From Bacteroidota bacterium (lineage in GTDB: Bacteria; Bacteroidota; Ignavibacteria; Kryptoniales; JAKASW01): a stretch of DNA of 64,000 nt. The stretch lies in assembly GCA_021812985.1 (NCBI GenBank), contig JAKAMG010000003.1:62001-126000 (forward strand), written 5' to 3'. This document shows, piece after piece, positions 29,702-48,034 of the stretch. The first letter of the stretch is position 1, and every line of letters starts with the position of its first letter. The notes under the pieces are model-generated. The model was not told the DNA's origin and ran no database searches. It saw nothing but the letters and a program-made list of their open reading frames with translations. The position numbers and the translations under genes were made by a program.

Positions 29702-31669
29702 TCAGCCAAACATCTGCAGAAAACTCTTCGCTATTATTTCAATGTCCAGCCAGATCGTCTGGTTGCGGGCATAGTATATATAAAGCTTCTCGACCTCTTC
29801 TGGTGACAGGGACTGCCCCCGATTCAATTGAACGACTCCTGTGACACCGAGCTTACCGAAGAGATCTTCGCTCCCCTGGGGATAATACTCGGACCTCCCC
29901 ACAATCGACAGCTCTCCTGAAAGGACTTTGGGTAATTTTCTGTAAACCCTCTTGACCGCGCTGTCCTTGCTGAACATTGTCAATGGCCAAAGGAAAACGA
30001 GGCCTAGCATGGAAAAAAAGAGATCAAAGCTTCGCTTCACGATGAGGTTCCTGAGGCGATGCAGGTTATAGTCGATGTCCACGAACGGGATATCCGCCAA
30101 ACCGTCCACATAAGTCTTTCCGATTATGACATCCATCGTGTCAGGCACGAGTTTGAAATTGACGGACGGATCTTTCACGCTGGCGACCGCCTCTAGTACC
30201 TGCGAATACGAGACCCTCCCTGACGCGAAGACGACATCGTCAATCTTCCGATCCCTCACCAGTTTCGGGAGTTCGGCAAGCGTTCCGACTATTCGTATTC
30301 CAAGGAGCCTTGGCTCGGATGTCGCCTCTTCTGACACCACACCGACGATATCGTATCCCATCGAGACTTTTCCGCGTATCTTCTTGATGAGCTCGACTGC
30401 CCTCTGGTCCACTCCCACGACGAGTGTCTTTCTTCCGAAGAGGGGATGTCTCGCCGTCCCCACAGATGTCCTCAGCTGATAGAACAGTCTGTAACCAGGA
30501 AGAACAAGCATCATGAATCCGCTTGCCGTCAATACCATCAACCTGGAAAATGCAAAGTCCTTGAAGAAATATGTCAGTGACGAGAAGAATAGGAACGTCA
30601 GAAAGCCGGTGAGCGATGACATCCTGAACGAAAACTTATTCTTTCCGTAGACGCCAAAGAAAACCCCAATGAACATGAACACGATTGCCGGCGCGATGTA
30701 AAAATACGGGCGGCCATATGAGGGTATCGAGTAGACCCTACCCGACTTCAGATATTCCCCCAGGAACATCGCGCCAACTATGACTGCGAAGTCGACGAAA
30801 ACGGGCCACACCTTCTCCAGCCAGAGGAAGAGCCGACGTGCCTGCCTGTTGGCGATGATCGCCGCGTGAAGAGCCCGCGAAAGAAAAGTGTTTACTCCGT
30901 ACCGCTTTTCCACAAAGACGCTCATCGCTTTGTAAAATTCGTACGTTTGATTGATACTGCTTCGCCGTGTGCTCTCTCCCTTGAAATGTATCGCCGTCGT
31001 CCGGGGCGTATAGTAAACCTTATGTCCAGCCCTCTTTATCTTGTAGCAGAGGTCTATGTCCTCACCATACATGAAGTAGTCTTCGTCGAACCCGCCGACC
31101 TCGTCGAATACGCGTCTCGGTATGAACATGAAACTTCCCCCGATCGCGTCAACCTCATGATCCTCCTCAGGATTCAGATAGGTTAGATTGTATCTTCCGA
31201 AGAGCTTGGTCTTCGGGAATAGAGTGCTTAAGCCGAACAGCTTCGTGAAAGCTACCCATGGCGTCGGGAAACCTCTGCGACACGTCTTCTGCAGTGTCCC
31301 GTCAGCGTTAAGAACCTTGCAGCTTGAAGCGCCCGCCTCCGGATGACTCTCGGAAAAGGCAAGCATCTCCTTGATGGTACTCTCTGTCACGATAGCGTCA
31401 GGATTGATGAGGAGTAGGTATTCCCCCGTTGAAGCCTTCACCCCCTGATTGTTTGCTCTGCCGAATCCCACGTTGACCCTGTTCTCAATCAGCCTTACAG
31501 AGGGGAAGTTCTTCTTAAGGTATTCGACAGTATCGTCATCCGAGGTGTTGTCCACGACGACGATTTCAGAATCGAGCCCCTCGAGCGACCGGTTCAAAGA
31601 TGCGATCAGGTTCTCGAGGAACCCGCGGACGTTAAAGCTTACAATTACTACGGAGACTTTCTTGCTCAA
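29702..31669 (-). CDS. Fusion of a GT2 glycosyltransferase with a degenerate phosphoglycosyl-transferase-like module
   Basis: 655 residues. Residues 1 to about 240 are a GT-A glycosyltransferase of the rhamnosyltransferase type (VVIVSFNVRGFLENLI, NVGFGRANNQGV, LLLINPDA, GGFDEDYFMYGEDIDLCYKI). After about 50 residues come four to five membrane helices and a Rossmann-like CoA_binding_3 domain (RKTLVVGVDQRAVELI), as in WcaJ/WbaP-type initiating transferases. The C-terminus keeps KRSFD (545-549) and GELSIVGR (585-592) but only 40 residues separate them, against about 100 in the active neighbour, so KFRSM and the Asp-Glu catalytic dyad are missing. The GT2 part should be active; the rest is probably a membrane scaffold or lipid-binding module. 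Confidence 0.85.
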   Translation of the reverse strand: MSKKVSVVIVSFNVRGFLENLIASLNRSLEGLDSEIVVVDNTSDDDTVEYLKKNFPSVRLIENRVNVGFGRANNQGVKASTGEYLLLINPDAIVTESTIKEMLAFSESHPEAGASSCKVLNADGTLQKTCRRGFPTPWVAFTKLFGLSTLFPKTKLFGRYNLTYLNPEEDHEVDAIGGSFMFIPRRVFDEVGGFDEDYFMYGEDIDLCYKIKRAGHKVYYTPRTTAIHFKGESTRRSSINQTYEFYKAMSVFVEKRYGVNTFLSRALHAAIIANRQARRLFLWLEKVWPVFVDFAVIVGAMFLGEYLKSGRVYSIPSYGRPYFYIAPAIVFMFIGVFFGVYGKNKFSFRMSSLTGFLTFLFFSSLTYFFKDFAFSRLMVLTASGFMMLVLPGYRLFYQLRTSVGTARHPLFGRKTLVVGVDQRAVELIKKIRGKVSMGYDIVGVVSEEATSEPRLLGIRIVGTLAELPKLVRDRKIDDVVFASGRVSYSQVLEAVASVKDPSVNFKLVPDTMDVIIGKTYVDGLADIPFVDIDYNLHRLRNLIVKRSFDLFFSMLGLVFLWPLTMFSKDSAVKRVYRKLPKVLSGELSIVGRSEYYPQGSEDLFGKLGVTGVVQLNRGQSLSPEEVEKLYIYYARNQTIWLDIEIIAKSFLQMFG

Positions 31670-32415
31670 TGCCGTTTCAGCCCCAGGAACTTGAGGATTC
31701 GCCCGACGCCCAGTATAAGGACAATTTTCACCGCCTCAAACACGATCTTCTTGGACATCTTGCTTGTCCCGACTCGCCTTTCGGTGAAGATAATCGGTAC
31801 CTCGGCGATTGTAAACCCGCGTCTGTAAGCCCGCACATTCATCTCCACCTGGAAGGCATAGCCGTTCGACCTTATCGAATTCAGATCGATAGACTTAAGC
31901 ACCTCAATTTTGAACGCCTTGTATCCGCTGGTCATGTCGTTAACCGGCACGCCGGTCACCACTCTCGCGAATATGTTGCCGCCGTAGCTGAGAAGCAGGC
32001 GCTTCATAGGCCAATTGAGGACCGAGACTCCGTAAGCGTACCTCGAACCTATGGCAACGTCAGCGTGATCGGTGAGCGCCTTGCAAAACTTCGGTATCTC
32101 TGCCGGCTCGTGTGAAAGATCCGCATCCATTTCCATAACGTAGTCGTAGCCATGTTCAATAGCATACTTGAACCCTGCCACGTAGGCCGTGCCCAGCCCT
32201 CCCTTCCCCTTCCGGCAGACCATCTTGACTCGCGAGTCCTTTTCAGAGATGCTCTCGACAATCTTCTGAGTCCCGTCAGGAGAGTTATCGTCGACGACGA
32301 GTATGTCCGTGTTTGAGCTGGCACTGAGCACTCTCGGAATGATTGCCCCGATGTTCTCCGCCTCGTTGTAGGTTGGAATGACTACGAGAAGCTTCTTCAC
32401 CCCTTCGGCTGACAT
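31666..32415 (-). CDS. Polyprenyl-phosphate glycosyltransferase (dolichol-phosphate mannose synthase-like)
   Basis: 249 residues, a GT2 enzyme. It opens with LLVVIPTYNEAENIGAII, has the metal-binding MEMDADLSHEP, and DMTSGYKAFK with RRVGTSKMS near the C-terminus, all typical of DPM1-type enzymes that move a sugar from a nucleotide donor to polyprenyl phosphate. There is no C-terminal membrane domain, as in the soluble DPM1 class. The lipid-linked sugar would be a donor for glycosyltransfer on the far side of the membrane, for instance by DUF2723/GT39-like proteins. It overlaps the GT2-fusion gene by four bases. Confidence 0.9.
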   Translation of the reverse strand: MSAEGVKKLLVVIPTYNEAENIGAIIPRVLSASSNTDILVVDDNSPDGTQKIVESISEKDSRVKMVCRKGKGGLGTAYVAGFKYAIEHGYDYVMEMDADLSHEPAEIPKFCKALTDHADVAIGSRYAYGVSVLNWPMKRLLLSYGGNIFARVVTGVPVNDMTSGYKAFKIEVLKSIDLNSIRSNGYAFQVEMNVRAYRRGFTIAEVPIIFTERRVGTSKMSKKIVFEAVKIVLILGVGRILKFLGLKRH

Positions 32416-32416
32416 A

Positions 32417-32578
32417 TCAGTTGTTCTCGCTTCTTAAAAACCAGGATTTGTTTGAGACGCAAAAGTTGGCATTGGCAACTCCTGCAACTAGTTCAATCAT
32501 TGCCGCACTGATGAAACTGGCAGGAAATGAAACTGCAACCAGGACATCAGAGACTCCGATTAGTTTTGCCGCTATCAT
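32417..32578 (-). CDS. Candidate 53-residue membrane microprotein
   Basis: This small frame fills the gap between the phosphoglycosyl transferase and the DPM1-like gene. Its ATG overlaps the upstream stop as ATGA, and its TGA ends one base before the next ATG, so it is linked to both neighbours. The product starts [19 protein letters not shown] and has one likely membrane helix of about 25-30 residues, then a polar tail. No homologue is recognised. It could be a pump or transferase accessory peptide, or simply an open gap; the exact junctions are the main support. Confidence 0.4.
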   Translation of the reverse strand: MIAAKLIGVSDVLVAVSFPASFISAAMIELVAGVANANFCVSNKSWFLRSENN

Positions 32579-33987
32579 GCGTGGCCCTTTCCTAGCAACA
32601 CGTGGAAGACAGTCCAAAACAGTATCTTGAAGTCAAGCTTCAGCGACATGTTTTCAATGTAATAGAGATCATATTGCAGGTCTATCTTTACGTCTTCTAT
32701 GCTCTCGTCGTACTTGTACTTTACTCTTGCAAGTCCGGTCAGACCCGGCTTCACTTTGTACCTTCGCTTGTAGAGTGGAATCTCCTGCGAGAGTTTCTCG
32801 ACAAAATATGGCCTTTCCGGTCTAGGTCCAACCAGACTCATCTGCCCTTTCAGCACGTTTAGAAACTGCGGCGTCTCGTCGAGATGTGACTTACGCAGGA
32901 ACCGGCCTACTTTCGTAACTCTCGGATCGTTCTTGGAAGCCCAGACGGGCCCCGTGTGCTTTTCCGCATCCACGGCCATCGACCGAAACTTGAGCAGCGT
33001 AAAATTCTTCAGGTCCTTCCCAACCCTCGTCTGCTTATAAACGATCGGCCCCTTTGAATCAAGCTTGATTGCCGCGGCGATGATCAGCCAGAGTGGAAGA
33101 CCAAGAATTAAGGAGAGGCCAGCAGCGGCAATATCAAGGAGTCGCTTCGTGACCACCTGCCATTGCTGCATCAGTTCAGGTACAACGTCTATGAGCGGAA
33201 ATCCGTAAAGCTGCGTTGTCCGAGCCTGTCCGGCGATCGAATCGTAAAGGTCGGGCACTATCTTTATGGCCACATCACCGCCGTTGATCGCCGAGATAAG
33301 ACCAAAGATTCTGTCTTTTTCATTCTCTTCGAGGGCGATTATTACTTCTCTCGCCTGATGCTCGGCAATTATATCGTTTATGCTAGCTTCCTTGCCGAGG
33401 ACAGGTGCCGGAAGCGGACCCGCGCCGTCGTGATTGCCGACCGCGACGAATCCCACCGGCTCATAACCGAGGCTCTTGTATTTCTTCGCCAGATCATAAA
33501 CCGACCGCCCGCGCTCACCTGAACCTACAATGATGGCGTTCCTCAGACCAATACCTCTGGCCAGAAGCTGCTTCTGGATTGTCCGCAGAACCACTCTGAT
33601 CGAAGAGACGAACAGGACGATTACTCCCCAATAGAAAACGAGGAAGAGTCTGAGGTGAGGTATCCTTCCGGAAGTCGCATCATCGAAGAATATTGCGAAG
33701 AACAGTACCATCACGCCGAGCGTCGTAACCTTCATCACCGCTATGATTTCATCCAGACGGGAACTTAGATAAGTGAACTTGTACAGCCCCCAGAACCAGA
33801 ACAGGAATATCATGAAAAGGGAGAGGAGGAGAATAGGTCCCCAGAAATCAGGCACGGCCATAACACGGAAGAATCCGCTTCTGACTCTGAAGTAGTAGTA
33901 CGCGAAATTGGCGATCAGAAGTGCGAAGATGTCTAACGCTACGAGGAGCGCCTTCTCTCTGAACGTTTGTCCGACTGACCTGCTCAA
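32575..33987 (-). CDS. Initiating polyprenyl-phosphate sugar phosphotransferase (WcaJ/WbaP-type)
   Basis: 470 residues. Four to five N-terminal helices are followed by a CoA_binding_3 Rossmann domain ([17 protein letters not shown], about 151-167) and the monotopic phosphoglycosyl transferase domain: KRLLD (281-285), a re-entrant helix, KFRSM (333-337), the Asp370-Glu371 dyad (HLDETPQ) and SLVGPRPE (384-391). It transfers a sugar 1-phosphate to undecaprenyl phosphate, starting the repeat unit that Wzx flips and Wzy polymerises. The start is TTG, with GGAGG rather far upstream (11 bases). Which sugar it uses is not visible. Confidence 0.93.
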
Positions 33988-37820: not shown

Positions 37821-39119
37821 TTATGATACCTTAACGGACTTAGAATATTTCTCTATTGCAAGTGCACCGACGATGGAAACGGCGAGCGAGATGACCCAGT
37901 AGCCCCACCTCGTTGCTTGGACGGCGAAAGAAAAGAACACAACTACGTTCAAATGAGCCAGCAGCGCGAGTAATATCAGCGATTTCCTCCGTTGATACTG
38001 CTCGTAGACGTACGAAGTAAGGGCACCAGTCAAATACACGAAAAACATTGCCCCTCCGATTCCCCAGTCAGCGTAAAGTTCCCGAAGATAACTGGCGGTA
38101 TTCGTTGAAGCAGGTACCCGATATGACTTTTGATATTCCAATACGGTCTGGGTGAGCCCAAGTTTGGCGAAAATCCTGTAGAATGGTGCAAAAGTGTTGC
38201 CGCCGACAGGTGTATGCTCCCCATCGCCTGCAAACTCATAATCGAGAAACCTGTTCAGCACAGCCACGTCCGAACTGAGATACAAATAAATTGACGGCGT
38301 GACAAATCCTACCCCTTTTAGTCTTGAAAGGCTTGTCTTCTCGCCTGTAAAACTCTCATTGACCCCCCGGAATGTCCTGACAAACTCCATTCCAAAAACA
38401 AAGATAAGCACAATCGAAAGAAGAGTCAGAACGCGCTTCCTAGTTGTCTTCCAATCGATGCCAATGGATTTTGCCTGCGGAAGAAAGAAGGCAGTTCCCC
38501 AAAGGATTGCCCCAATTATCAACCTACTGCGGCCGAACGATGCAATTGCATTAGCCAACTCCACCACGAAAGGAAGAACACCAAGAACTATTGGCTTCCG
38601 GCGTTGTCCAGCATAATAACCGCCAAGAAAGTCAGCTGCAAGGCTCACACTGTCCACATATGGCCACATCCCGGGGAATCCAGCCTCGCTCCTTCGGAAA
38701 GAGTACAGCAAGTTGGCATTTACGATAGCGCCTTTCACACTGCCAAACATTTTCAAAAGGACAGTCCAGTGCTGGTAAGTACCAAGAGCGCCTATGACAG
38801 TAAATAGGACCAGGACGATGGTGGTAACACCCATATCCAAAGGAAAGATAGCTCTGTTGTTCAGTTCCTTTGCCGCATAAAACCTTCGGAAGGTGAGCGC
38901 TGCTACGACAAAAACCAGCCATGCTCCAAAAATGAATGCACTTGTCTCAACCGAGAGATCAGGATAATTGATGAACCTCAATTGAAAGAGTATGATTTGA
39001 GTGCCCCATACAACACCGTAGATCGTTACATGATTTATCCAACGTCCATAAGCTCGCAGGCCTACCCACACAGTAAGTACTGTTATGGCAATATAGGATA
39101 AAAGAACTATTTCAGGCAC
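37821..39119 (-). CDS. O-antigen/oligosaccharide repeat-unit polymerase (Wzy-like)
   Basis: 432 residues with about ten hydrophobic segments and few conserved residues, as expected for Wzy. A large extracytoplasmic loop lies around residues 270-340 (GENTFAPFYRIF-like region with YKSYRVPASTNTASYL) and is followed by LRELYADWGIGGAMFFVYLTG, a stretch seen in oligosaccharide repeat-unit polymerases. It would link lipid-linked repeats in the periplasm. It overlaps the flippase gene by eight bases. AT-richer than the flanking housekeeping regions. Symbol withheld because Wzy proteins are recognised mainly by topology and context. Confidence 0.78.
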   Translation of the reverse strand: MPEIVLLSYIAITVLTVWVGLRAYGRWINHVTIYGVVWGTQIILFQLRFINYPDLSVETSAFIFGAWLVFVVAALTFRRFYAAKELNNRAIFPLDMGVTTIVLVLFTVIGALGTYQHWTVLLKMFGSVKGAIVNANLLYSFRRSEAGFPGMWPYVDSVSLAADFLGGYYAGQRRKPIVLGVLPFVVELANAIASFGRSRLIIGAILWGTAFFLPQAKSIGIDWKTTRKRVLTLLSIVLIFVFGMEFVRTFRGVNESFTGEKTSLSRLKGVGFVTPSIYLYLSSDVAVLNRFLDYEFAGDGEHTPVGGNTFAPFYRIFAKLGLTQTVLEYQKSYRVPASTNTASYLRELYADWGIGGAMFFVYLTGALTSYVYEQYQRRKSLILLALLAHLNVVVFFSFAVQATRWGYWVISLAVSIVGALAIEKYSKSVKVS

Positions 39120-40611
39120 CTGCTCTACCAGGAAGCATCGCTCGTATCATTCTTTTCTCGTTTTCTTCGAGCGCATATCTAAATACTATTATAAGGTACA
39201 GTATCCCGCCCAACAGGGCGACTCCCGCCTTTGCCACAAGATCGTGCTGTAACGCAATCGCGCTTCCAGCCCCCACAACTAGGATCATTGCCGGAAGCAG
39301 GAACTTCTTCCATGGTCGGGTTAAAAAACCAACTTTTAGACCAAGTTTAGTCGAAGCGTACATGTACAAAAGGAAAGCATCAAGGATAAGCCGGAAAAGG
39401 GTAGCGACCGCTGCGCCCATCAAGCCAAAGGATTTAACCAAAAGGAATGTAACAATGAAGTGTATGGGCAATTCAATTAAGTGAACCCTGCCTGTCAAAT
39501 CTGATCTTCCGACGGCCTGAAGGATCGTATATGGAAGTTGGGCTATGGATGATGCGACAAACGCTATTGATAACAGCTCGAAGGTGGAAGTTGCGTGCTC
39601 TGTGAACACAGCCCCCATCCATAGCCTAAGCACCTCCGGAGCAAACACACACAACCCCGCCCCAATTGGAAGAAAGGCGAAGATCAGCACACGTTCGGAC
39701 TGCAGATAAAGCTTCTTGAAATCATCTCCTAACCCGGTCGTTCCATGGAGCTCACTCATTGCGGGATAGAGCGCTGATACAAGTCCTACTGACAATACGA
39801 GCATTTTAGAAGTAGCTTCGTAAGGAACGATATAGTACGTAACCATACTCGTGGCAACCATACCACTCAGAAAGAAGCGCTCGGCATACTGCAAGAGTGG
39901 GCTGACAACTTGGCTGACCATTACCCATCCACCAAAGAGGAGGACGCCCTTGACGAGAGAGAGATTAAGTCTTCCCTTTATTCCGATCCAATTCACGCTA
40001 GACTGCGTCAGTATGACCAATACAATTGTAGTAACGAGCCTCCCTAGCATGATGAAGCAAATTATCCACACTACTCCGAAATGCAGCACCACCAGCACCA
40101 TCGCCCCTCCCCACTGAAGTGCACTATTCAACACTTGGACGAGATTGGAGAGGTCGAATCTGTCCAACCCCATAAGCACTCCCCTAAAGACCCCCTGCAG
40201 GAGTAGCAATGGCATAAACAAGCCCACGAGCTTGAGGGATGCGTCAACCGTACTGAAGTAGCTCTGGGAGACAGTAAAGAGTAAGCTGCCAATTGGCCGC
40301 GAAAAACCCACGATAAGGTACCCAATCACCATCCCGAGGAGCGTGCTTACCACAACAGAGACAAAGACGATCTCTCTGACATCCCTTTCTCTACCCACAG
40401 CTCTTCGTTCAGCTACAAACTTGGTAACAGCGCGCCCTATCCCCCAGTCCCAAAGAGTAAAGTAGCCGACAACAGTCCAAACGAGTGATAGGATGGCAAA
40501 GGAAGTATCTCCTAAACCACGGACGATCCATGGCATGGCAAGGAACATGACAAGCATGACGATAACTTGCGATCCTATGTTGAGAGCGGTATTGCGATAG
40601 ACGCGCTTCAA
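39112..40611 (-). CDS. wzx: Polysaccharide repeat-unit flippase (Wzx, MOP superfamily)
   Basis: 499 residues with about 12-14 membrane helices. The start KRVYRNTALNIGSQVIVMLVMFLAMPWIVRGLG is the typical PST/Wzx N-terminus (basic residue before helix 1, Gly/Pro-rich end), and SALYPAMSELHG lies midway, as in RfbX-like proteins. It moves undecaprenyl-linked oligosaccharide across the inner membrane. It overlaps the wzz-like gene at its 5' end (four bases) and the polymerase gene at its 3' end. Confidence 0.88.
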   Translation of the reverse strand: MKRVYRNTALNIGSQVIVMLVMFLAMPWIVRGLGDTSFAILSLVWTVVGYFTLWDWGIGRAVTKFVAERRAVGRERDVREIVFVSVVVSTLLGMVIGYLIVGFSRPIGSLLFTVSQSYFSTVDASLKLVGLFMPLLLLQGVFRGVLMGLDRFDLSNLVQVLNSALQWGGAMVLVVLHFGVVWIICFIMLGRLVTTIVLVILTQSSVNWIGIKGRLNLSLVKGVLLFGGWVMVSQVVSPLLQYAERFFLSGMVATSMVTYYIVPYEATSKMLVLSVGLVSALYPAMSELHGTTGLGDDFKKLYLQSERVLIFAFLPIGAGLCVFAPEVLRLWMGAVFTEHATSTFELLSIAFVASSIAQLPYTILQAVGRSDLTGRVHLIELPIHFIVTFLLVKSFGLMGAAVATLFRLILDAFLLYMYASTKLGLKVGFLTRPWKKFLLPAMILVVGAGSAIALQHDLVAKAGVALLGGILYLIIVFRYALEENEKRMIRAMLPGRAGA

Positions 40612-41879
40612 TACATCCCATCCTTGACCTTGAATCGCTTGACCATATTTAAAGAGAACTCCCGGATCTTGGCCTCAAGCGGGTTTAGTGCTCCGACCTC
40701 AAATCGCACCCGATCCATGACGTGAATCAAATAAATCAACAAAGAGAGAACAGCAAAAGCAAAAATGATTTCAATAAAGAGTCGCTTGGGTACTGTAGGT
40801 TTCTCAGGAGGCAAGGCCCTGTCCAATACGATCACAGCAGGAGTATTTTTCTGCTCCTCAATTTTCGCCTGTTCAAACATGGGTAGGGTAAACTCTAGCA
40901 GTTTTGTCTGTATTTCGTAATTCCGATAGAAGCGAAGATAAGCTATGCCTAGTTCAGGTACCTTTTCAAAAGCAGGGAAAAAGTTGCCCGTATTGCCAAA
41001 ATCTCCCCCCGTGCCTGTTTGCATCTCATTCAACTTCTTTTGTATTTCCTGAACCTGAAGACTCTTGAGTTTAACCTCTGGTGCATCCGCTCCGAACTGG
41101 TGCTCCAGCACATTTAGCTGGACTTCTGCGGCAATCTTTTGCGCTTCCAGATCAGTTCCGGCGGCAATCGCGGCTTTTGCTTGCTGAGGAACGTCGTAAA
41201 CCTTGTAGCGCTCCTGGAAAGCTTCCAGGGTGTCCTCGGCATTTCTCAGATCAGACAGATTCTTCTCATACTGCTGCTGGATGAAAATTCGGTTGTTATG
41301 TGCTTCCTCCACACTTACTCTGACATAAATCTCGTTTAGCAAATCCACAAAATAATTTGCCATCGCGGCGGCCCTTGACGCGCTCTTGTCTAAAACTGAT
41401 ATGTTTATCGCCCCATTCTCATCAATTTCGAAATCAGTATTGGCTCTAAGATTCTTCTCCGCGTACATCATCGGGTAGTTTGTAATTTTATAGACTTTTA
41501 TAAGGTCGAATTTATCAATCACTGAGTCAATTACTGTACGGCTATTGAGAATCGCCAGATATGTGAAACTGCGGTCGCCACCTAGCCCACCTCTACCCAT
41601 TGTTATGAGTGGCGATACGTCTCGAAGTATTGATGAAACGCTCCCCATGCTTCCGAGCAGTCCGGAAGTTTGTGGTGGCAATACAGAGGCTTCGGCTTTG
41701 TAGTAGCGTGGTATCAGAAGGAGTATGATAGTCACAGCAATCATTATGGATCCGAAAACGGTAACTATGAACCACTTCCAATTAAGCAACACATAAAGAA
41801 ATTGCCATAGCGTGCTCCTGCTTCGTTGTGGAATGGGAGTCTCTCCACCGTTATTATTCTCTGTTTTCAGAGTCATCAC
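40608..41879 (-). CDS. Chain-length determinant (Wzz/GNVR-type)
   Basis: 423 residues with two flanking membrane helices: residues about 25-58 (FIVTVFGSIMIAVTIILLLIP) and about 370-390 (LFIEIIFAFAVLSLLIYLIHV). Between them lies a periplasmic domain with a coiled coil and a GNVR-like region, ending in the Pro-rich ALPPEKPTVPKRL that precedes helix 2, a hallmark of polysaccharide co-polymerases. It sets the polymer length with Wzy. There is no C-terminal tyrosine kinase domain, so it is a Wzz-class rather than a Wzc-class protein. No Wza-type exporter is visible. Confidence 0.87.
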   Translation of the reverse strand: MMTLKTENNNGGETPIPQRSRSTLWQFLYVLLNWKWFIVTVFGSIMIAVTIILLLIPRYYKAEASVLPPQTSGLLGSMGSVSSILRDVSPLITMGRGGLGGDRSFTYLAILNSRTVIDSVIDKFDLIKVYKITNYPMMYAEKNLRANTDFEIDENGAINISVLDKSASRAAAMANYFVDLLNEIYVRVSVEEAHNNRIFIQQQYEKNLSDLRNAEDTLEAFQERYKVYDVPQQAKAAIAAGTDLEAQKIAAEVQLNVLEHQFGADAPEVKLKSLQVQEIQKKLNEMQTGTGGDFGNTGNFFPAFEKVPELGIAYLRFYRNYEIQTKLLEFTLPMFEQAKIEEQKNTPAVIVLDRALPPEKPTVPKRLFIEIIFAFAVLSLLIYLIHVMDRVRFEVGALNPLEAKIREFSLNMVKRFKVKDGMY

Positions 41880-42023
41880 TCATCCTTTTTGTAACTTTCA
41901 TATTGCTCATCCGAAGATGAAGTTCAAATCGATACAGAGCCTAGTCTCCGACGTGTGGGCGCTTTCGTGATCGTCCACCTATGATAGAAACTCACCGCTT
42001 GCTCCTTGGTAGAATTGAATTTA

Positions 42024-42998
42024 TCACCATTTCAACTTCTTGAAAGTCCTGATATTATAGAATTCGTCATTCTCGAAGTCTCCGTAGGTATCCATGTGCC
42101 TGTAAAGATCCTCGACGGTGTCGGAGATTGAAAAAATTGGCCTGAAACCTAAGCTTGTGCGGGCACGATCAATGGAGACCTTGTAATTTCTAAAATCCTG
42201 TATATTCTTGATGTCTATCGCGATCTTCTTCCCAGTAAGTCTCTCGACCTGCATCTTCACGAGGTCACCGACTTCGCCGACAGTAAAGTTCCCGGCCGCA
42301 ACATTGAACACGCCACTCAAAGAGAGATGCGCCTGAACGGAACGCAGATAAGCTGACACTATGTCTCTCAAGTCACATATCGGCCGCCATATTGATGGGT
42401 TGTTTATGGTGATCTTCCCCGTCGTCATGGCTGATTTGAACATCGTATTTATTATAAGGTCAAATCGCATCCTCGGACTATACCCGCTTATTGTCCCCTG
42501 CCGCAGCGCAATAACGGAGAATTTGTCGTCCTGAATTTGAAAGACTCCTCGTTCTCCCTGCAGTTTTGATATGCCATACGGGTACGCGCAAGTAACCGGG
42601 GCTTCTTCATCGTAGAGGTTGTTCTCAGTGTAACCGTAGACAGAACACGACGAAGCGTACACATATCGCTTGACGCCCGCTTGTTTTGCAATATACGCGA
42701 GGTAAGCTGGCAGGGCGGCGTTGTGGACAAAGTTCATAGCCGGGCTGAATTCTGCCATTGGATCATTGGAAAGGCCTGCTAGAAATACGAAGACATCATA
42801 ACCTTCCATGTCCTCTTTTTTGATATTGAAAAGGTCCTTCTCTATTACCCTCACCCCCGAGGGGAGATGATTTCCAAACCAAAGAAGATCTATGACCGTA
42901 ACATCATATCCGCGTTCCACCAAGGCCGGCACTAAAAGACTGCCAATGTAACCCGCGCCTCCTCCGATCAGAACTTTCATTCTTCCTTCAGCACTCAT
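42024..42998 (-). CDS. NAD-dependent epimerase/dehydratase (extended SDR)
   Basis: 324 residues. The start is supported by AAGGAG six bases upstream; residues 6-18 contain RMKVLIGGGAGYIGS, the dinucleotide motif GxxGxxG. The catalytic Tyr and Lys are in YPYGISK, and SSCSVYG supplies the Ser. Similar to UDP-glucose 4-epimerase-like enzymes that make nucleotide-sugar precursors, with substrate unknown. Upstream is the rmlD-like gene; downstream a 144-base gap with nothing recognised precedes the wzz gene. Confidence 0.85.
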   Translation of the reverse strand: MSAEGRMKVLIGGGAGYIGSLLVPALVERGYDVTVIDLLWFGNHLPSGVRVIEKDLFNIKKEDMEGYDVFVFLAGLSNDPMAEFSPAMNFVHNAALPAYLAYIAKQAGVKRYVYASSCSVYGYTENNLYDEEAPVTCAYPYGISKLQGERGVFQIQDDKFSVIALRQGTISGYSPRMRFDLIINTMFKSAMTTGKITINNPSIWRPICDLRDIVSAYLRSVQAHLSLSGVFNVAAGNFTVGEVGDLVKMQVERLTGKKIAIDIKNIQDFRNYKVSIDRARTSLGFRPIFSISDTVEDLYRHMDTYGDFENDEFYNIRTFKKLKW

Positions 42999-43026
42999 AT
43001 TGACTCCTTTCGTTTTTTCGCCTTAT

Positions 43027-43740
43027 TCAAAAGAGCTTCTTGAACAAACCGATATCCAGCGATGTATCCTTTGGAACAGAGAAAGTCACCTCCGATGTCG
43101 AAAGCTTTCCAATTTGCTTCTTAGGACTAATGGCAACCGCATATTCGTGTACCGACTTTCTGTCCCCGCCCACATGGATCACCCCTCGGAAGTCGCCATC
43201 AACCACCTTTAGCATCAGCCTCACTATCTCCGAAACCGGCTCCCTGCTCGTCCATTGATCCACGAACGCCTTTTCATAGGGAAACTCGTCCGGGCCGAAG
43301 CTAGTCCGGATAATCACCGAATTATCGTACATTCTTACGGCGCATTCACCACCTAACTTCGACCACGCATATTTGTTAACAGGGTGCAGTTCATCCTCCT
43401 CCTGATATCTCCCTCTGTCGCCGCGAAAGACATAGTCTGTGGAAACGTAAATTAGCCTCAGACTATGCTTTATGCAAAGGTTCACCACGTTTGCGGTACC
43501 GATTATATTGACCGCGATTCCCATCTCGGGCTGCTTGTCAACCCTTGGTGGAGAGGTAAAAGCGGCGGCGTGGAACACTGTCTTTACCGCGTGTTCTTGA
43601 ACGTATTTGTCCATCTGATCAAAATTGACAACATCGAACTCAACCTTGGAGGGATACAAGGCGTCAGGGAGTCTTTTCCGGAATTCCCTTCCGAGCAGTC
43701 CGGAGCCTCCAGTGAACAAAACCTTCTTGTCCTCTATCAT
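43027..43740 (-). CDS. RmlD-like nucleotide-sugar reductase (SDR)
   Basis: 237 residues from the ATG of MIEDKKVLFTGG; an ATG 27 bases earlier has no RBS, while AAGGCTAGGA precedes this one. GGSGLLG marks the cofactor site, and VSTDYVFRGDRGRYQEED with YAWSKLGGE carries the Ser/Tyr/Lys catalytic set of dTDP-4-dehydrorhamnose reductase-like enzymes. Shorter than typical RmlD (about 290). It probably produces a dTDP- or UDP-deoxysugar with rmlB and rmlC products. There is a 14-base gap after the preceding gene's start region. Confidence 0.82.
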   Translation of the reverse strand: MIEDKKVLFTGGSGLLGREFRKRLPDALYPSKVEFDVVNFDQMDKYVQEHAVKTVFHAAAFTSPPRVDKQPEMGIAVNIIGTANVVNLCIKHSLRLIYVSTDYVFRGDRGRYQEEDELHPVNKYAWSKLGGECAVRMYDNSVIIRTSFGPDEFPYEKAFVDQWTSREPVSEIVRLMLKVVDGDFRGVIHVGGDRKSVHEYAVAISPKKQIGKLSTSEVTFSVPKDTSLDIGLFKKLF

Positions 43741-43781
43741 AAATCCTAGCCTTTTGTTTTCAATCATGAACCAGCGGACAT

Positions 43782-44657
43782 TTAGAGTGCCCTCCCGCTG
43801 AAGAGTGACTCAGTTGAGTCTGCACCTTTTACAATTGATCTTCTTAGTTTTCTAATCAGTCCACGGGCCTTTCGAAGAAAGAAAAACGGCACACTGTCGG
43901 GCAGTATTGGTGCGCCCAGATCACGAATGCGAATTGACAGAAGAGCTTCGTTCAAAATCGCTATCGCTTTCGCCCGAAACAGCGGCCATGTCGCATCGGT
44001 GAGCTCGAATCTGCTGTGCCACTCCTCTGTGAGCCACCTGATGATTCTTCGACGGTATACCCGATCGATCGGGGCATCATCTACGAACACTGATTCGTAA
44101 CCGGGAAACTTTTCAGGAAGGTAGTTAGCTATGGCATCACTGTCGATGCTCACCAGATCACCCAACCTGTAGGTGAGCGCCGCCGGCATGAAGAAACAAT
44201 TGGTATTCACCCAGATCCGCGACACCCTTCCGTTGATTCTTCCCTTTTCCCAGACCGTGTCCACGTAGCCTATGACAGCGTGTAGAAACATCGATTTCAA
44301 AGTGAGCCACTTCACGCTTCTCTTTTCGAGATAGCTGGGACGGATCGATTCGAATGCCTCGTTCACAAACAAAATGACATCGCACTTGATGTTCCTCTCA
44401 TGCAGGAAATCGATTCCGAGTTGCCAGCCTGAAAACTCTCTATCGCGGTTGTTGCCCTGGAGGTAGAAGCTGTTATCATCTCCGACGTGCCAGCCATCCC
44501 CTTCGTCTCTATTATCGACTACGACGTAAACAGGCTTGAGCCCTCTGGCTTTAGACAAGTACGACCTTAGTTTGCGCAGGGAATCAGGATATTTCTGCGT
44601 GTTGTACTGAACATACACTACAGCCAGGCGCATATCAGGACTGAACACTTTTGCCAA
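43782..44657 (-). CDS. Unknown protein of the polysaccharide locus, possible GT-A glycosyltransferase
   Basis: 291 residues. The start is a TTG with GGAG four bases upstream; an ATG eight codons later would also give RLAVVYVQYNTQ. Features hint at a GT-A fold: the first strand RLAVVYVQYN, a VYVVVDNRD where GT2 enzymes have an NNxS turn, GNNRDREFSGWQLGIDFL resembling the GNNxGxxxG loop, and ILFVNEAFES in place of a DxD. No standard family was recognised with confidence. The C-terminus is basic (RKARGLIRKLRR). Between rmlD-like and rmlC genes it likely takes part in repeat-unit assembly. Confidence 0.55.
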   Translation of the reverse strand: MAKVFSPDMRLAVVYVQYNTQKYPDSLRKLRSYLSKARGLKPVYVVVDNRDEGDGWHVGDDNSFYLQGNNRDREFSGWQLGIDFLHERNIKCDVILFVNEAFESIRPSYLEKRSVKWLTLKSMFLHAVIGYVDTVWEKGRINGRVSRIWVNTNCFFMPAALTYRLGDLVSIDSDAIANYLPEKFPGYESVFVDDAPIDRVYRRRIIRWLTEEWHSRFELTDATWPLFRAKAIAILNEALLSIRIRDLGAPILPDSVPFFFLRKARGLIRKLRRSIVKGADSTESLFSGRAL

Positions 44658-44678
44658 ATTTCTCCGATTGACGACTCA

Positions 44679-44728
44679 CCCCGTGACATAGCGAAGCGAA
44701 GTGGACCGCGAAGCGCAACGTCATGGGG
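44679..44728. repeat. REP-like palindromic element
   Basis: CCCCGTGAC (44679-44687) and GTCATGGGG (44720-44728) can pair over nine positions with one G-U. The loop holds repeated GCGAAGCG words. It sits in the 150-base gap upstream of the 291-residue gene. This looks like a dispersed intergenic palindrome, but only one copy is in the window. Confidence 0.4.
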
Positions 44729-44807
44729 ATGCACCTAACGACGCTGCAATTACACCAACGTGGTTTTCGCGATATTACCGAGCTCCCGATGGATGTATTC
44801 ATCCGTG

Positions 44808-45446
44808 CTAGCACACTCCGTACACGAAATTCTCCGAACGCGAATCGGAAAGCCATTGCTCGAGGGTCAAACCATTTCGGTCCTTTTCACTAAGCAGGCC
44901 TGAGGCTCTGACAGTGGTATCGAACATCTGCCTGAGCTCGTCCGGACAGAGCGACCAGTCCAGGTCTTTTGCCAAGGGCGATATGCCTGCTTCGCAACCC
45001 GGACTATACTCTCCACTACAGAGGTATTCAATCCTTGAATCCTCAGTAAAGAAATTACCGTGAGCAAATCCAGGCGGGACCCAAATCCACTCGCTGTAAT
45101 TATCGCTAACTGCTGTCGCCATGTCAAAGGCAGTAATTTTCCCGAGAGTCGGTGATCCCTTTCTGATATCCAGCACGAGATCGACCATATGACCTTGAGT
45201 AGTCCGCACCAGCTTGCCCATGTAAGGGTTCCATTGGAAATGCAGTCCGCGACAGACGCCGCGCTTCGAGAAGCTCTCATTGATTTGAACAAACTGAAGG
45301 CTCGAAAACCCTTTCAGGTCAGGATGACCTACAGTATCACTTCTCCTGTACGGTTCCGTAAAATATCCGCGTTCATCTGCAAAGCGGGCGAATCTGATAA
45401 CCTTAACATCTTCAATGGCAAGAGATTTAACCGATAGGATCTTCAT
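44808..45446 (-). CDS. rmlC: dTDP-4-dehydrorhamnose 3,5-epimerase-like (RmlC)
   Basis: 212 residues with the RmlC cupin: FADERGYFTEPYR, a VQINESFSKRGVCRGLHFQ strand with the catalytic-loop His, KLVRTTQGHMVDLVLDIRKGSPTLGK, and VPPGFAHGNF with a second conserved His. It epimerises the 4-keto sugar made by RmlB at C3 and C5. RmlC paralogues exist that only work at C3, so the final deoxysugar (L-rhamnose or other) is uncertain. It is separated from wecB by 96 bases. Confidence 0.88.
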   Translation of the reverse strand: MKILSVKSLAIEDVKVIRFARFADERGYFTEPYRRSDTVGHPDLKGFSSLQFVQINESFSKRGVCRGLHFQWNPYMGKLVRTTQGHMVDLVLDIRKGSPTLGKITAFDMATAVSDNYSEWIWVPPGFAHGNFFTEDSRIEYLCSGEYSPGCEAGISPLAKDLDWSLCPDELRQMFDTTVRASGLLSEKDRNGLTLEQWLSDSRSENFVYGVC

Positions 45447-45542
45447 ACTTCTCCTGAGAATATTTCAATGTTGTAATAGTGCTCTTGGCTTCTGGAGTGT
45501 CTGCTATAAACGTATCAAATGAGCAATGGTCGTTCCGCCGGA

Positions 45543-46703
45543 TCAATTCGTGAGGGCGGTATGCCTGGGATGAGTTCGCTCTCCTGAAGTCGGCCCATTT
45601 CCAAGGGAACCAGCAAGTATTCCCGCGATTCTCTCGGCGGCTTTGCCGTCCCAGAGGGCCGGGACAGTGCTCTCCTTCCATTTCCCGGCGTAGCATTCGG
45701 ACGTGAGAGCGACTACCTTTTCAACATCCAAACCGGTAAGGACATTTGTGCCAATCTCTATCGTGGCTGGACGTTCGGTATTCTCCCTCATCGTCACGCA
45801 CGGCACGTTGAGATATGTGGTCTCTTCCTGTATCCCGCCTGAGTCCGTCAGAATGATCTTCGCCTCCATCATGAGGTTGAGAAAATCCAGATAACCCAGC
45901 GGTTCGGTAAGGACCAAACCAGTTATCGAGTCGAAATCCCCCTTTAACCCGAACTCCTCGATGCGTTTCCTCGTCCTCGGATGAATGGGGAATACGATCT
46001 TTCCAAGGGTCCCGACTTTGCCTAGTATACTGAGTATCTTGACGAGGTTATCCCTGTCGTCAACATTCGCCGGCCTGTGTAGCGTGACCAGCGTATATTT
46101 CCCCTCGGCAACGTGAAGCAGTTCCTTTATTCTTGAAGAACGAGCTTTTTGCCTGTAGAGGATTAGCGAATCAATCATGACATCGCCGACGAGGAACACC
46201 TTCTCGTCGCTTATCCCTTCATGCTTCAGGTTTACGATTCCACTCTCTTCAGTCACAAAGAGGTAGTCGCTCAGTACGTCAGTGACCATCCGGTTGATTT
46301 CCTCGGGCATTGTCCGGTCGAAGCTTCTAAGACCCGCCTCCACGTGCGCGACTGGGATGAGGAGCTTGGAAGCCGTAAGACTGCACGCGACGGTGGAGTT
46401 CACATCGCCAACCACGATCACGAGATCAGGCTTCTCGCTCTGGAGCACTTTCTCAAATTCGACCATCACCCTGGCGGTCTGCTCGGCGTGCGAGCCGGAG
46501 CCGATTCCGAGATAGACATCTGGCTTGGGAAGTTCGAGGTCCTCGAAGAAGACCTTCGACATGTTCGCGTCGTAGTGCTGTCCGGTATGAACAATCCTAT
46601 GAGTGAGGGACTCCACGCGAGAGAATGCCCTGTGGAGCGGCGCGACCTTCATGAAATTCGGTCGAGCTCCGACGACGCTTATGAACTTGAGTCGCCGGCT
46701 CAC
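45543..46703 (-). CDS. wecB: UDP-N-acetylglucosamine 2-epimerase (non-hydrolysing)
   Basis: 386 residues. The start is the GTG that overlaps the preceding stop (GTGA), giving KFISVVGARPNFMK; longer upstream frames overlap the dehydrogenase by 80 bases with low-complexity sequence. WecB signatures are HTGQHYDANMS, VEAGLRSFDRTMPEEINR, LVTLHRPANVDD and the UDP-binding TDSGGIQEE. It converts UDP-GlcNAc to UDP-ManNAc; with the neighbouring dehydrogenase the product would be UDP-ManNAcA, a common capsule/O-antigen/enterobacterial antigen sugar. Confidence 0.95.
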   Translation of the reverse strand: MSRRLKFISVVGARPNFMKVAPLHRAFSRVESLTHRIVHTGQHYDANMSKVFFEDLELPKPDVYLGIGSGSHAEQTARVMVEFEKVLQSEKPDLVIVVGDVNSTVACSLTASKLLIPVAHVEAGLRSFDRTMPEEINRMVTDVLSDYLFVTEESGIVNLKHEGISDEKVFLVGDVMIDSLILYRQKARSSRIKELLHVAEGKYTLVTLHRPANVDDRDNLVKILSILGKVGTLGKIVFPIHPRTRKRIEEFGLKGDFDSITGLVLTEPLGYLDFLNLMMEAKIILTDSGGIQEETTYLNVPCVTMRENTERPATIEIGTNVLTGLDVEKVVALTSECYAGKWKESTVPALWDGKAAERIAGILAGSLGNGPTSGERTHPRHTALTN

Positions 46704-48034
46704 TTTCCGTCCCCCAATAGGACTATTTTCTCTCTTTCCTTCCTTACCCCCTTCGTCGCGTTTCTCGCGTCGATGACACATTTCGAATTCTCAACAATCA
46801 TGTCGTAGTCGTATGCTGAATGGTCAGTGGTAATGAGAACGCAATCCGCCGACTTCAGAAGTTTCGGAGTAATCCTAACAGAGCGGAATTGCTTCCCGTC
46901 CACCTTAATGGACGGGACGTAAGGGTCATTATAAGAAATATTCGATGCGCCATCCTGCAGTAGGAGTTCCATCACCTTCAAGGCGGGTGAATGCCGTGTG
47001 TCATCCACATCCTTCTTGAAGGCTACTCCTAGGATAAGAATCTTCGCCTTCCTGAAGCTCACCGGTCTGAAGCTCAATTCTCTCTGCACCATGTTCCTGA
47101 CATAGAACGGCATATTTTCATTCACTTCCGCAGCGAGCGAGATGAAGTTCGTCTGGAAATCGTAGGCCTTGGCCAGCCACTCGAGATAGTACGGATCGAT
47201 CAGTATGCAGTGGCCGCCGATTCCAGGCCCGGGATAGAATGGCATGAAACCGAAAGGCTTCGTCGCGGCTGCGTCTACGACTTCCCAAATGTTTATGCCA
47301 CCCATCCTGTCGCAAAGCTGAGCCAGCTCATTGACGAGGGCAATGTTGACGCTCCTGAATATGTTCTCGAGGAGCTTCTCCATTTCAGCGACCTTAGGAC
47401 TCGAGACCTTCACCACCTTTTCGACGCTTTGGGCGACAACGAGAGCGGCCAACTCCGTGCTGAGCTCGTTTATTCCACCGACCACAGTCGGGATATTATT
47501 AGTCTTGAACTTCTTGTTGCCTGGATCTATGCGCTCGGGAGAAAAGGCGAGGAAGAAGTCCTTCCCGGCGACGAGCCCCGTTTCCTCAAGGATGGGTTGC
47601 ACGTATCCTTCAGTAGTGTTCGGAAACGTTGTGCTCCGCAGTACGATTAGCTGGTTCTTTCTGAGCCGCCGGGAGATCTCTTTCGTCGCATTTATGATGA
47701 AGGAAATATCGGGCTCCTTGTTTGGGGTAAAGGGAGTCGGGACACATATGAAAATCGCGTCGCATTTCCCTATCGCGCCGTAACTGCCGTCAGCTTTCAG
47801 TGTCCTGTTCCGTACCACCGAGGCGAAATCTCCGGACTCGATGTCGTCGATGTAGTTCTTTCCCCTCCTTATGTTCTCGATCTTCTTCTTGTCCAGATCT
47901 ATGCCGAGCGTTTCAAAACCTTTGGAGGCGAATTCGACTGCCAGCGGTAGCCCAACATATCCAAGTCCGACCACGCCTACTTTAAGCGTTTTCTTTTCAA
48001 TCTTTCTTTTGATCTCTTCGAGGATTGCGCTCAT
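46700..48034 (-). CDS. wecC: UDP-N-acetyl-D-hexosamine dehydrogenase (WecC/WbpA-type)
   Basis: 444 residues. The N-terminus has KVGVVGLGYVGLPLA for NAD. The active-site motif YPGPGIGGHCILIDP with its catalytic Cys is of the HexNAc-dehydrogenase class, not the UGDH class. KILILGVAFKKDVDDTRHSPAL marks the C-terminal substrate domain. It oxidises the C6 of UDP-ManNAc (WecC) or UDP-GlcNAc (WbpA); WecC is inferred from the adjacent wecB. It overlaps rmlB by four bases. Confidence 0.9.
   Translation of the reverse strand: MSAILEEIKRKIEKKTLKVGVVGLGYVGLPLAVEFASKGFETLGIDLDKKKIENIRRGKNYIDDIESGDFASVVRNRTLKADGSYGAIGKCDAIFICVPTPFTPNKEPDISFIINATKEISRRLRKNQLIVLRSTTFPNTTEGYVQPILEETGLVAGKDFFLAFSPERIDPGNKKFKTNNIPTVVGGINELSTELAALVVAQSVEKVVKVSSPKVAEMEKLLENIFRSVNIALVNELAQLCDRMGGINIWEVVDAAATKPFGFMPFYPGPGIGGHCILIDPYYLEWLAKAYDFQTNFISLAAEVNENMPFYVRNMVQRELSFRPVSFRKAKILILGVAFKKDVDDTRHSPALKVMELLLQDGASNISYNDPYVPSIKVDGKQFRSVRITPKLLKSADCVLITTDHSAYDYDMIVENSKCVIDARNATKGVRKEREKIVLLGDGK

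Follow-up and report, generated by a model that had tools for sequence, protein, structure and literature searches.

A GT2 glycosyltransferase fused to a phosphoglycosyl transferase scaffold that lacks its catalytic core

WbaP of Salmonella, a large monotopic phosphoglycosyl transferase (Lg-PGT; structure 8T53), consists of four transmembrane (TM) helices, a CoA_binding_3 domain (DUF), a hairpin region, a re-entrant helix and C-terminal PGT helices, in that order. Its hairpin reaches into the DUF of the partner subunit, making a domain-swapped dimer; uridine nucleotides bind to the DUF, and UMP inhibits the enzyme (PMC10942596). The large monoPGT EpsZ has no hairpin and relies on a partner protein for dimerisation instead (PMC12802240), which implies that Lg-PGTs can be controlled by protein contacts. 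Two other groups are pertinent: Bi-PGTs, bifunctional monoPGTs to which a second functional domain is fused, and PglF-like dehydratases, whose TM bundle and DUF are homologous to those of Lg-PGTs (PMC10942596).

The gene described here lies in a 64,000-nucleotide stretch of Bacteroidota DNA (the window). Its product follows the WbaP order, but a GT2 domain is fused in front, and KFRxM, the Asp-Glu dyad and the PRP motif are missing. Resemblance to the Bi-PGTs lies in the fusion of a second domain; the PGT core is functional in Bi-PGTs, whereas it is missing from every copy of the fusion family found. In contrast to the PglF-like dehydratases, the protein has no dehydratase (SDR) domain by Pfam and has a PGT-derived tail after its DUF. 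The features of the locus are:

29702..31669, minus strand: GT2-pseudo-PGT fusion gene, 655 aa
30890..31669, minus strand: GT2 glycosyltransferase domain, aa 1-260, apparently intact
30470..30817, minus strand: four-helix transmembrane bundle of the Lg-PGT type, aa 285-400
30134..30469, minus strand: CoA_binding_3/DUF Rossmann domain, aa 401-512
30050..30133, minus strand: segment aligned to the post-DUF hairpin region of Lg-PGTs, aa 513-540, IIGKTYVDGLADIPFVDIDY
29972..30049, minus strand: re-entrant membrane helix of the PGT domain, with KRxxD and Pro562, aa 541-566
29915..29971, minus strand: junction missing about 60 residues of the PGT catalytic core (KFRxM, Asp-Glu dyad), aa 567-585
29705..29938, minus strand: retained C-terminal part of the PGT domain, aa 578-655
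31666..32415, minus strand: DPM1-like polyprenyl-phosphate hexose synthase (GT2), its stop overlapping the fusion start by 4 nt
32575..33987, minus strand: complete large monotopic PGT, TIGR03025 above cut-off

The fusion gene starts with TTG, within that overlap. Pfam places Glycos_transf_2 at aa 6-134 and CoA_binding_3 at aa 353-509; Bac_transf matches at aa 579-654 over positions 94-178 of its 179-position profile only, and the first part of the NCBIfam EPS_sugtrans, WcaJ and WbaP models matches at aa 290-566. KRSFD occupies aa 545-549 and GELSIVGR aa 585-592. The initial annotation had described a C-terminal half made up of TM helices, CoA_binding_3, KRSFD and GELSIVGR, in a frame that runs intact through the fusion, with a complete PGT two genes upstream. 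Pfam, alignment and AlphaFold agree with the first of these statements; the frame is likewise an uninterrupted 655-aa ORF, open in genus relatives too; and the PGT at 32575-33987, with the DPM1-like GT2 in between, is where it was said to be. That PGT is the only intact Bac_transf protein found in the source genome.

The GT2 domain apparently works. PF00535 scores 81.5 bits (cut-off 23.3), and D40 N41 D45, N89-P90-D91, E203-D204, H228 and G231 are invariant in 113 homologues. Structural matches of this part are 6P61, GalNAc-transferases, RmlT and WrtF; with the rhamnosyltransferase RmlT, the fucosyltransferase WrtF and 6P61 it shares the GT-A fold, Pfam Glycos_transf_2 and the conserved NPD and ED motifs, but those GT2s have no PGT-derived chassis.

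The PGT part is another matter. The fusion protein has 22 residues between Pro562 and Gly585, whereas 82 lie between Pro298 and Gly381 of the intact PGT nearby, so that 60 are missing. This gap count and an alignment of 57 pseudo-PGT with 57 PGT scaffolds bear out the initial annotation, which had put the loss at about 60 residues, KFRSM and the Asp-Glu dyad among them: none of the 57 pseudo-PGT rows has KFRxM or the dyad, and little is left of the PRP motif after SLVG (its residues are kept in 2-7% of those rows). What is kept is K545, R546, D549, Pro562, G591, G608, T610, G611, Y633, D642 and, in the TM bundle, D293, which is invariant in pseudo-PGTs and PGTs alike. A comparison with PDB sequences matches the two flanks of the gap to WbaP 8T53 (145-351 and 441-517), and about 90 WbaP residues are skipped. 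A restored KFRSM/DE core in relatives had been named beforehand as evidence against this reading; none was found in Bacteroidota, Calditrichota and WOR-3 relatives. The dyad motif occurs in 0 of 219 homologous ORFs, and KFRxM was not found in their PGT part (two regex matches, at aa 271, lie outside it). Copies in WOR-3 and some others have 36-55 residues in the gap as against 19-30 elsewhere, and in longer copies of 680-720 aa the gap holds up to 55; this remnant contains neither the dyad nor other catalytic motifs. Judged by sequence, with KFRxM, the dyad and PRP all gone, the known PGT mechanism is closed to the fusion protein.

Two further departures from the usual sequences may be recorded. 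Copies of 680-690 aa (L178, L179, L181, L182 and related ones) keep the length of the PGT tail with strongly changed sequence (for example, HPLLK and WYFYV-like ends), possibly a further change of function. At a few Ignavibacteria loci (L073:991-2325, L086:3845-5236, L103:3910-5256) it is the neighbouring 'intact' PGT whose motifs are damaged, with DG or DV replacing DE or with no KFRxM; here another PGT may be on its way to becoming a pseudoenzyme.

The predicted structures resemble WbaP and PglC. The full-length AlphaFold2 model (113 homologues) has a mean pLDDT of 85.9, with blocks of the tail at about 74-96; the top 50 matches listed for it are GT2s only, and the scaffold was therefore folded alone (100 homologues, mean pLDDT 84.7). 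This model shows four TM helices, a Rossmann domain, a long helix at 539-566 and C-terminal helices. Foldseek ranks WbaP 8T53 first (E 8.7e-13). In VIA-align, 315 residues align to 8T53 (Z 13.1) with an rmsd of 16.1, because the domains are placed differently; the match is domain by domain and not rigid-body. The last 118 scaffold residues (model 254-371) align with PglC 8E37 over 115 residues at 3.1 A rmsd (Z 10.7). The alignment to PGT structures proposed in the initial annotation thus yields PglC for the pseudo-PGT domain and WbaP for the scaffold. Pro562 is conserved in at least 90% of homologues, and its near-invariance, together with the PglC match, supports the retention of a re-entrant helix with its conserved Pro, a feature that the initial annotation had proposed to look for in a predicted structure. 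The hairpin segment keeps its sequence register and is constrained, but has pLDDT <50 in monomer models. This might be what a dimer-dependent element looks like in a monomer; low confidence proves nothing.

A fusion of this kind could have been a one-off deletion or an assembly error. That explanation is ruled out, since the same frame is open in separate assemblies of other genus members (68-79% identity) and the architecture is widespread. Full-length relatives occur throughout genus and class. In a phylum sample of 395 genomes (98 of the source class and 297 others; threshold E <= 1e-55), a family match is found in 94 of the 98 and, reduced copies included, in 130 of the 297, nearly always as a single copy per genome. 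Records from WOR-3/Stahlbacteria, Kapaibacteria, Saprospiraceae and Chitinophagaceae have the same architecture. The database search for the same architecture and deletion thus disposes of the possibility, raised at the outset, that there would be no homologues: the fusion with its dead part is retained in hundreds of related bacteria, and that part is probably there for docking or anchoring and not by mistake. It is not present in all Bacteroidota; some families, f32 among them, have chassis-less GT2 proteins only.

In the scaffold tree pseudo-PGTs and PGTs separate cleanly (57/57, support 0.993, branch 0.75), which speaks for a single old origin of the pseudo-PGT chassis; recurrent independent fusions are not favoured, as the two sets separate without exception at that support. 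The GT2-domain tree also makes the fusion family monophyletic against 11 outgroup GT2s (support 0.81), with reduced architectures scattered inside it, which means that losses were repeated. As far as the sampling goes, a copy of an Lg-PGT became joined to the end of a GT2 and lost its core before the family spread.

Reduction has gone to different lengths. Calditrichota and Fibrobacterota copies have lost the PGT domain (in at least 21 of 39 Calditrichota genomes matches run through CoA_binding_3 and then end, and Fibrobacter copies resemble these). Bacteroidia copies, of about 385-405 aa, have neither TM bundle nor PGT part and keep GT2, the CoA_binding_3 core and the hairpin. That the latter are unrelated to the fusion family is ruled out by a profile comparison (hhalign probability 98.4, E 6.2e-15), in which the tail of these copies aligns with the full family's Rossmann domain and hairpin. 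Lineages that have shed the PGT module, or everything that sits in the membrane, still keep the GT2, and the full chassis is thus not always needed; on these alignments, what persists longest of it is the DUF with its hairpin.

Graded erosion of this kind, with the core lost everywhere, the PGT domain in Calditrichota and Fibrobacterota and the TM bundle as well in Bacteroidia, and with the fullest forms spread over the family tree, is what would be expected if the GT2 were the sole working part and the chassis a vestige decaying at lineage-specific speeds. Selection makes this very unlikely. Within the genus (where pS is near saturation, so that only the ranking of values is meaningful), pN/pS is 0.163 for the GT2 domain and 0.171 for the PGT tail, and lowest of all segments, 0.135, for the hairpin. 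The Rossmann domain has 0.218, and the TM part and the re-entrant helix are higher still, at 0.313 and 0.428. Decay would not leave a tail with a pN/pS like that of a catalytic domain, nor does it explain a tail that stays in frame across the class. The dead tail and hairpin, constrained like the GT2 while the dyad is absent everywhere, are therefore functional and not debris. Conservation of the GT2 motifs and purifying selection on the dead part give good support to what the initial annotation had suggested, a pseudoenzyme fused to a functional-looking transferase.

What the chassis does is less certain. One proposal is that it does no more than anchor the GT2 to membrane and lipid: the TM bundle, together with the re-entrant and C-terminal helices, would hold the GT2 at the bilayer and bind the acceptor polyprenyl, with no PGT contact. 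Mean pairwise identity among 113 homologues is higher for the re-entrant helix (0.34) and tail (0.32) than for the TM bundle (0.26) and Rossmann domain (0.24), and KR..D, Pro562, Tyr633 and Asp642 are retained while active-site residues are lost, as an anchor would have it. Left unexplained are the Rossmann domain and hairpin that remain in copies without a TM bundle and the lowest pN/pS at the hairpin; we regard the proposal as unlikely on balance. Somewhat less probable still is a homodimeric fusion whose GT2 is tuned by UMP/UDP, the DUF acting as nucleotide-sensing regulator and the PGT remnant being structural. The uridine-nucleotide binding and UMP inhibition of WbaP (PMC10942596) and the persistence of the DUF speak for such a regulator, but the DUF is among the less conserved regions (the mean identity of 0.24 given above).

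The surroundings of the gene bear on a further reading. In 112-115 homologous loci, a DPM1-like synthase lies upstream of the fusion in 66, on the same strand in all 66, with a median gap of 8.5 nt between the two genes. An intact PGT is nearby on the same strand in 59 of 115 loci (about half), with more than one arrangement of the genes. A PGT is present in 98 of 100 relatives, and all 94 fusion-bearing genomes have a complete one; the two PGT-less genomes, G006 and G060 (the latter incomplete), are also without the fusion. Such co-occurrence is weak evidence, since PGTs are near-universal in these genomes. The Pfam-confirmed accA (acetyl-CoA carboxylase alpha) gene is present in 66 homologous loci and directly downstream of the fusion in 58 full-length ones; it adjoins the fusion gene in many lineages (for example, L068:4121-5086), though not in the window. 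Upstream of the PGT, the window has at 37821-48034 a Wzx/Wzy-type polysaccharide cluster, with a repeat-unit polymerase, a MATE/Wzx-like flippase, a BexC/KpsE-like protein and ManNAc-uronate-like genes (wecB and an NDP-sugar dehydrogenase).

We tentatively favour, at a little under an even chance, a GT2 with a lipid-linked acceptor, kept at the membrane by the pseudo-PGT chassis and most likely docked on the intact Lg-PGT of its pathway. The constrained, dyad-less tail and hairpin, the nearby PGT in 59 of 115 loci and the WbaP and PglC model matches point this way. The chassis retains the membrane-seated parts and the DUF with its hairpin, and most likely sits beside the intact Lg-PGT or forms a mixed dimer with it through the hairpin; Und-PP-sugar from the PGT would be handed to the GT2 active site for addition of the next sugar. 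Sensing of UMP/UDP by the DUF, which is reported for WbaP, may come in addition. Docking through the hairpin draws on the reduced Bacteroidia copies, which keep the Rossmann domain and the hairpin, WbaP's dimerising element. Hairpin docking is not universal, however, since EpsZ has no hairpin (PMC12802240); the hairpin could make homodimers instead of mixed dimers; and in about half of the loci an intact PGT is not close by, which counts against docking, as do the lineages that manage with less than the full chassis.

Rather more speculative, and on present evidence somewhat unlikely, is the proposal that the pseudo-PGT is an adaptor that exchanges DUF hairpins with the intact initiating PGT and so brings the first (PGT) step of lipid-linked glycan assembly and a following GT2 step into one membrane complex, and that it could also be a missing enzyme of the Bacteroidota O-glycan core. 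According to a 2025 review, the enzymes of this conserved core are unknown, the pathway resembles O-mannosylation, and the motif enrichment is shared by Fibrobacterota (PMC12871550). The candidacy derives only from three things: the family is widespread as a single copy, its neighbour is DPM1-like, and its GT2 fold resembles that of deoxysugar transferases. Absence of the fusion from some Bacteroidota families weakens the link to a phylum-wide core, and we give it little weight.

Fusions of active PGTs (the Bi-PGTs) are already known. The open-access literature searched (subscription papers were outside its scope) holds no prior description of pseudo-PGTs or GT2-PGT fusions; a conserved pseudo-PGT chassis on a GT2 is undescribed to that extent, which is not proof of novelty. 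With this family the PGT superfamily gains a class of pseudoenzymes, and one that shows which parts of a PGT are separable from catalysis. That the enzymes assembling lipid-linked glycans are physically coupled is an old suspicion, though a difficult one to prove. Here a PGT body without chemistry, kept under selection in a natural fusion and lying beside a real PGT, offers a direct test of whether the dead enzyme binds the live one.
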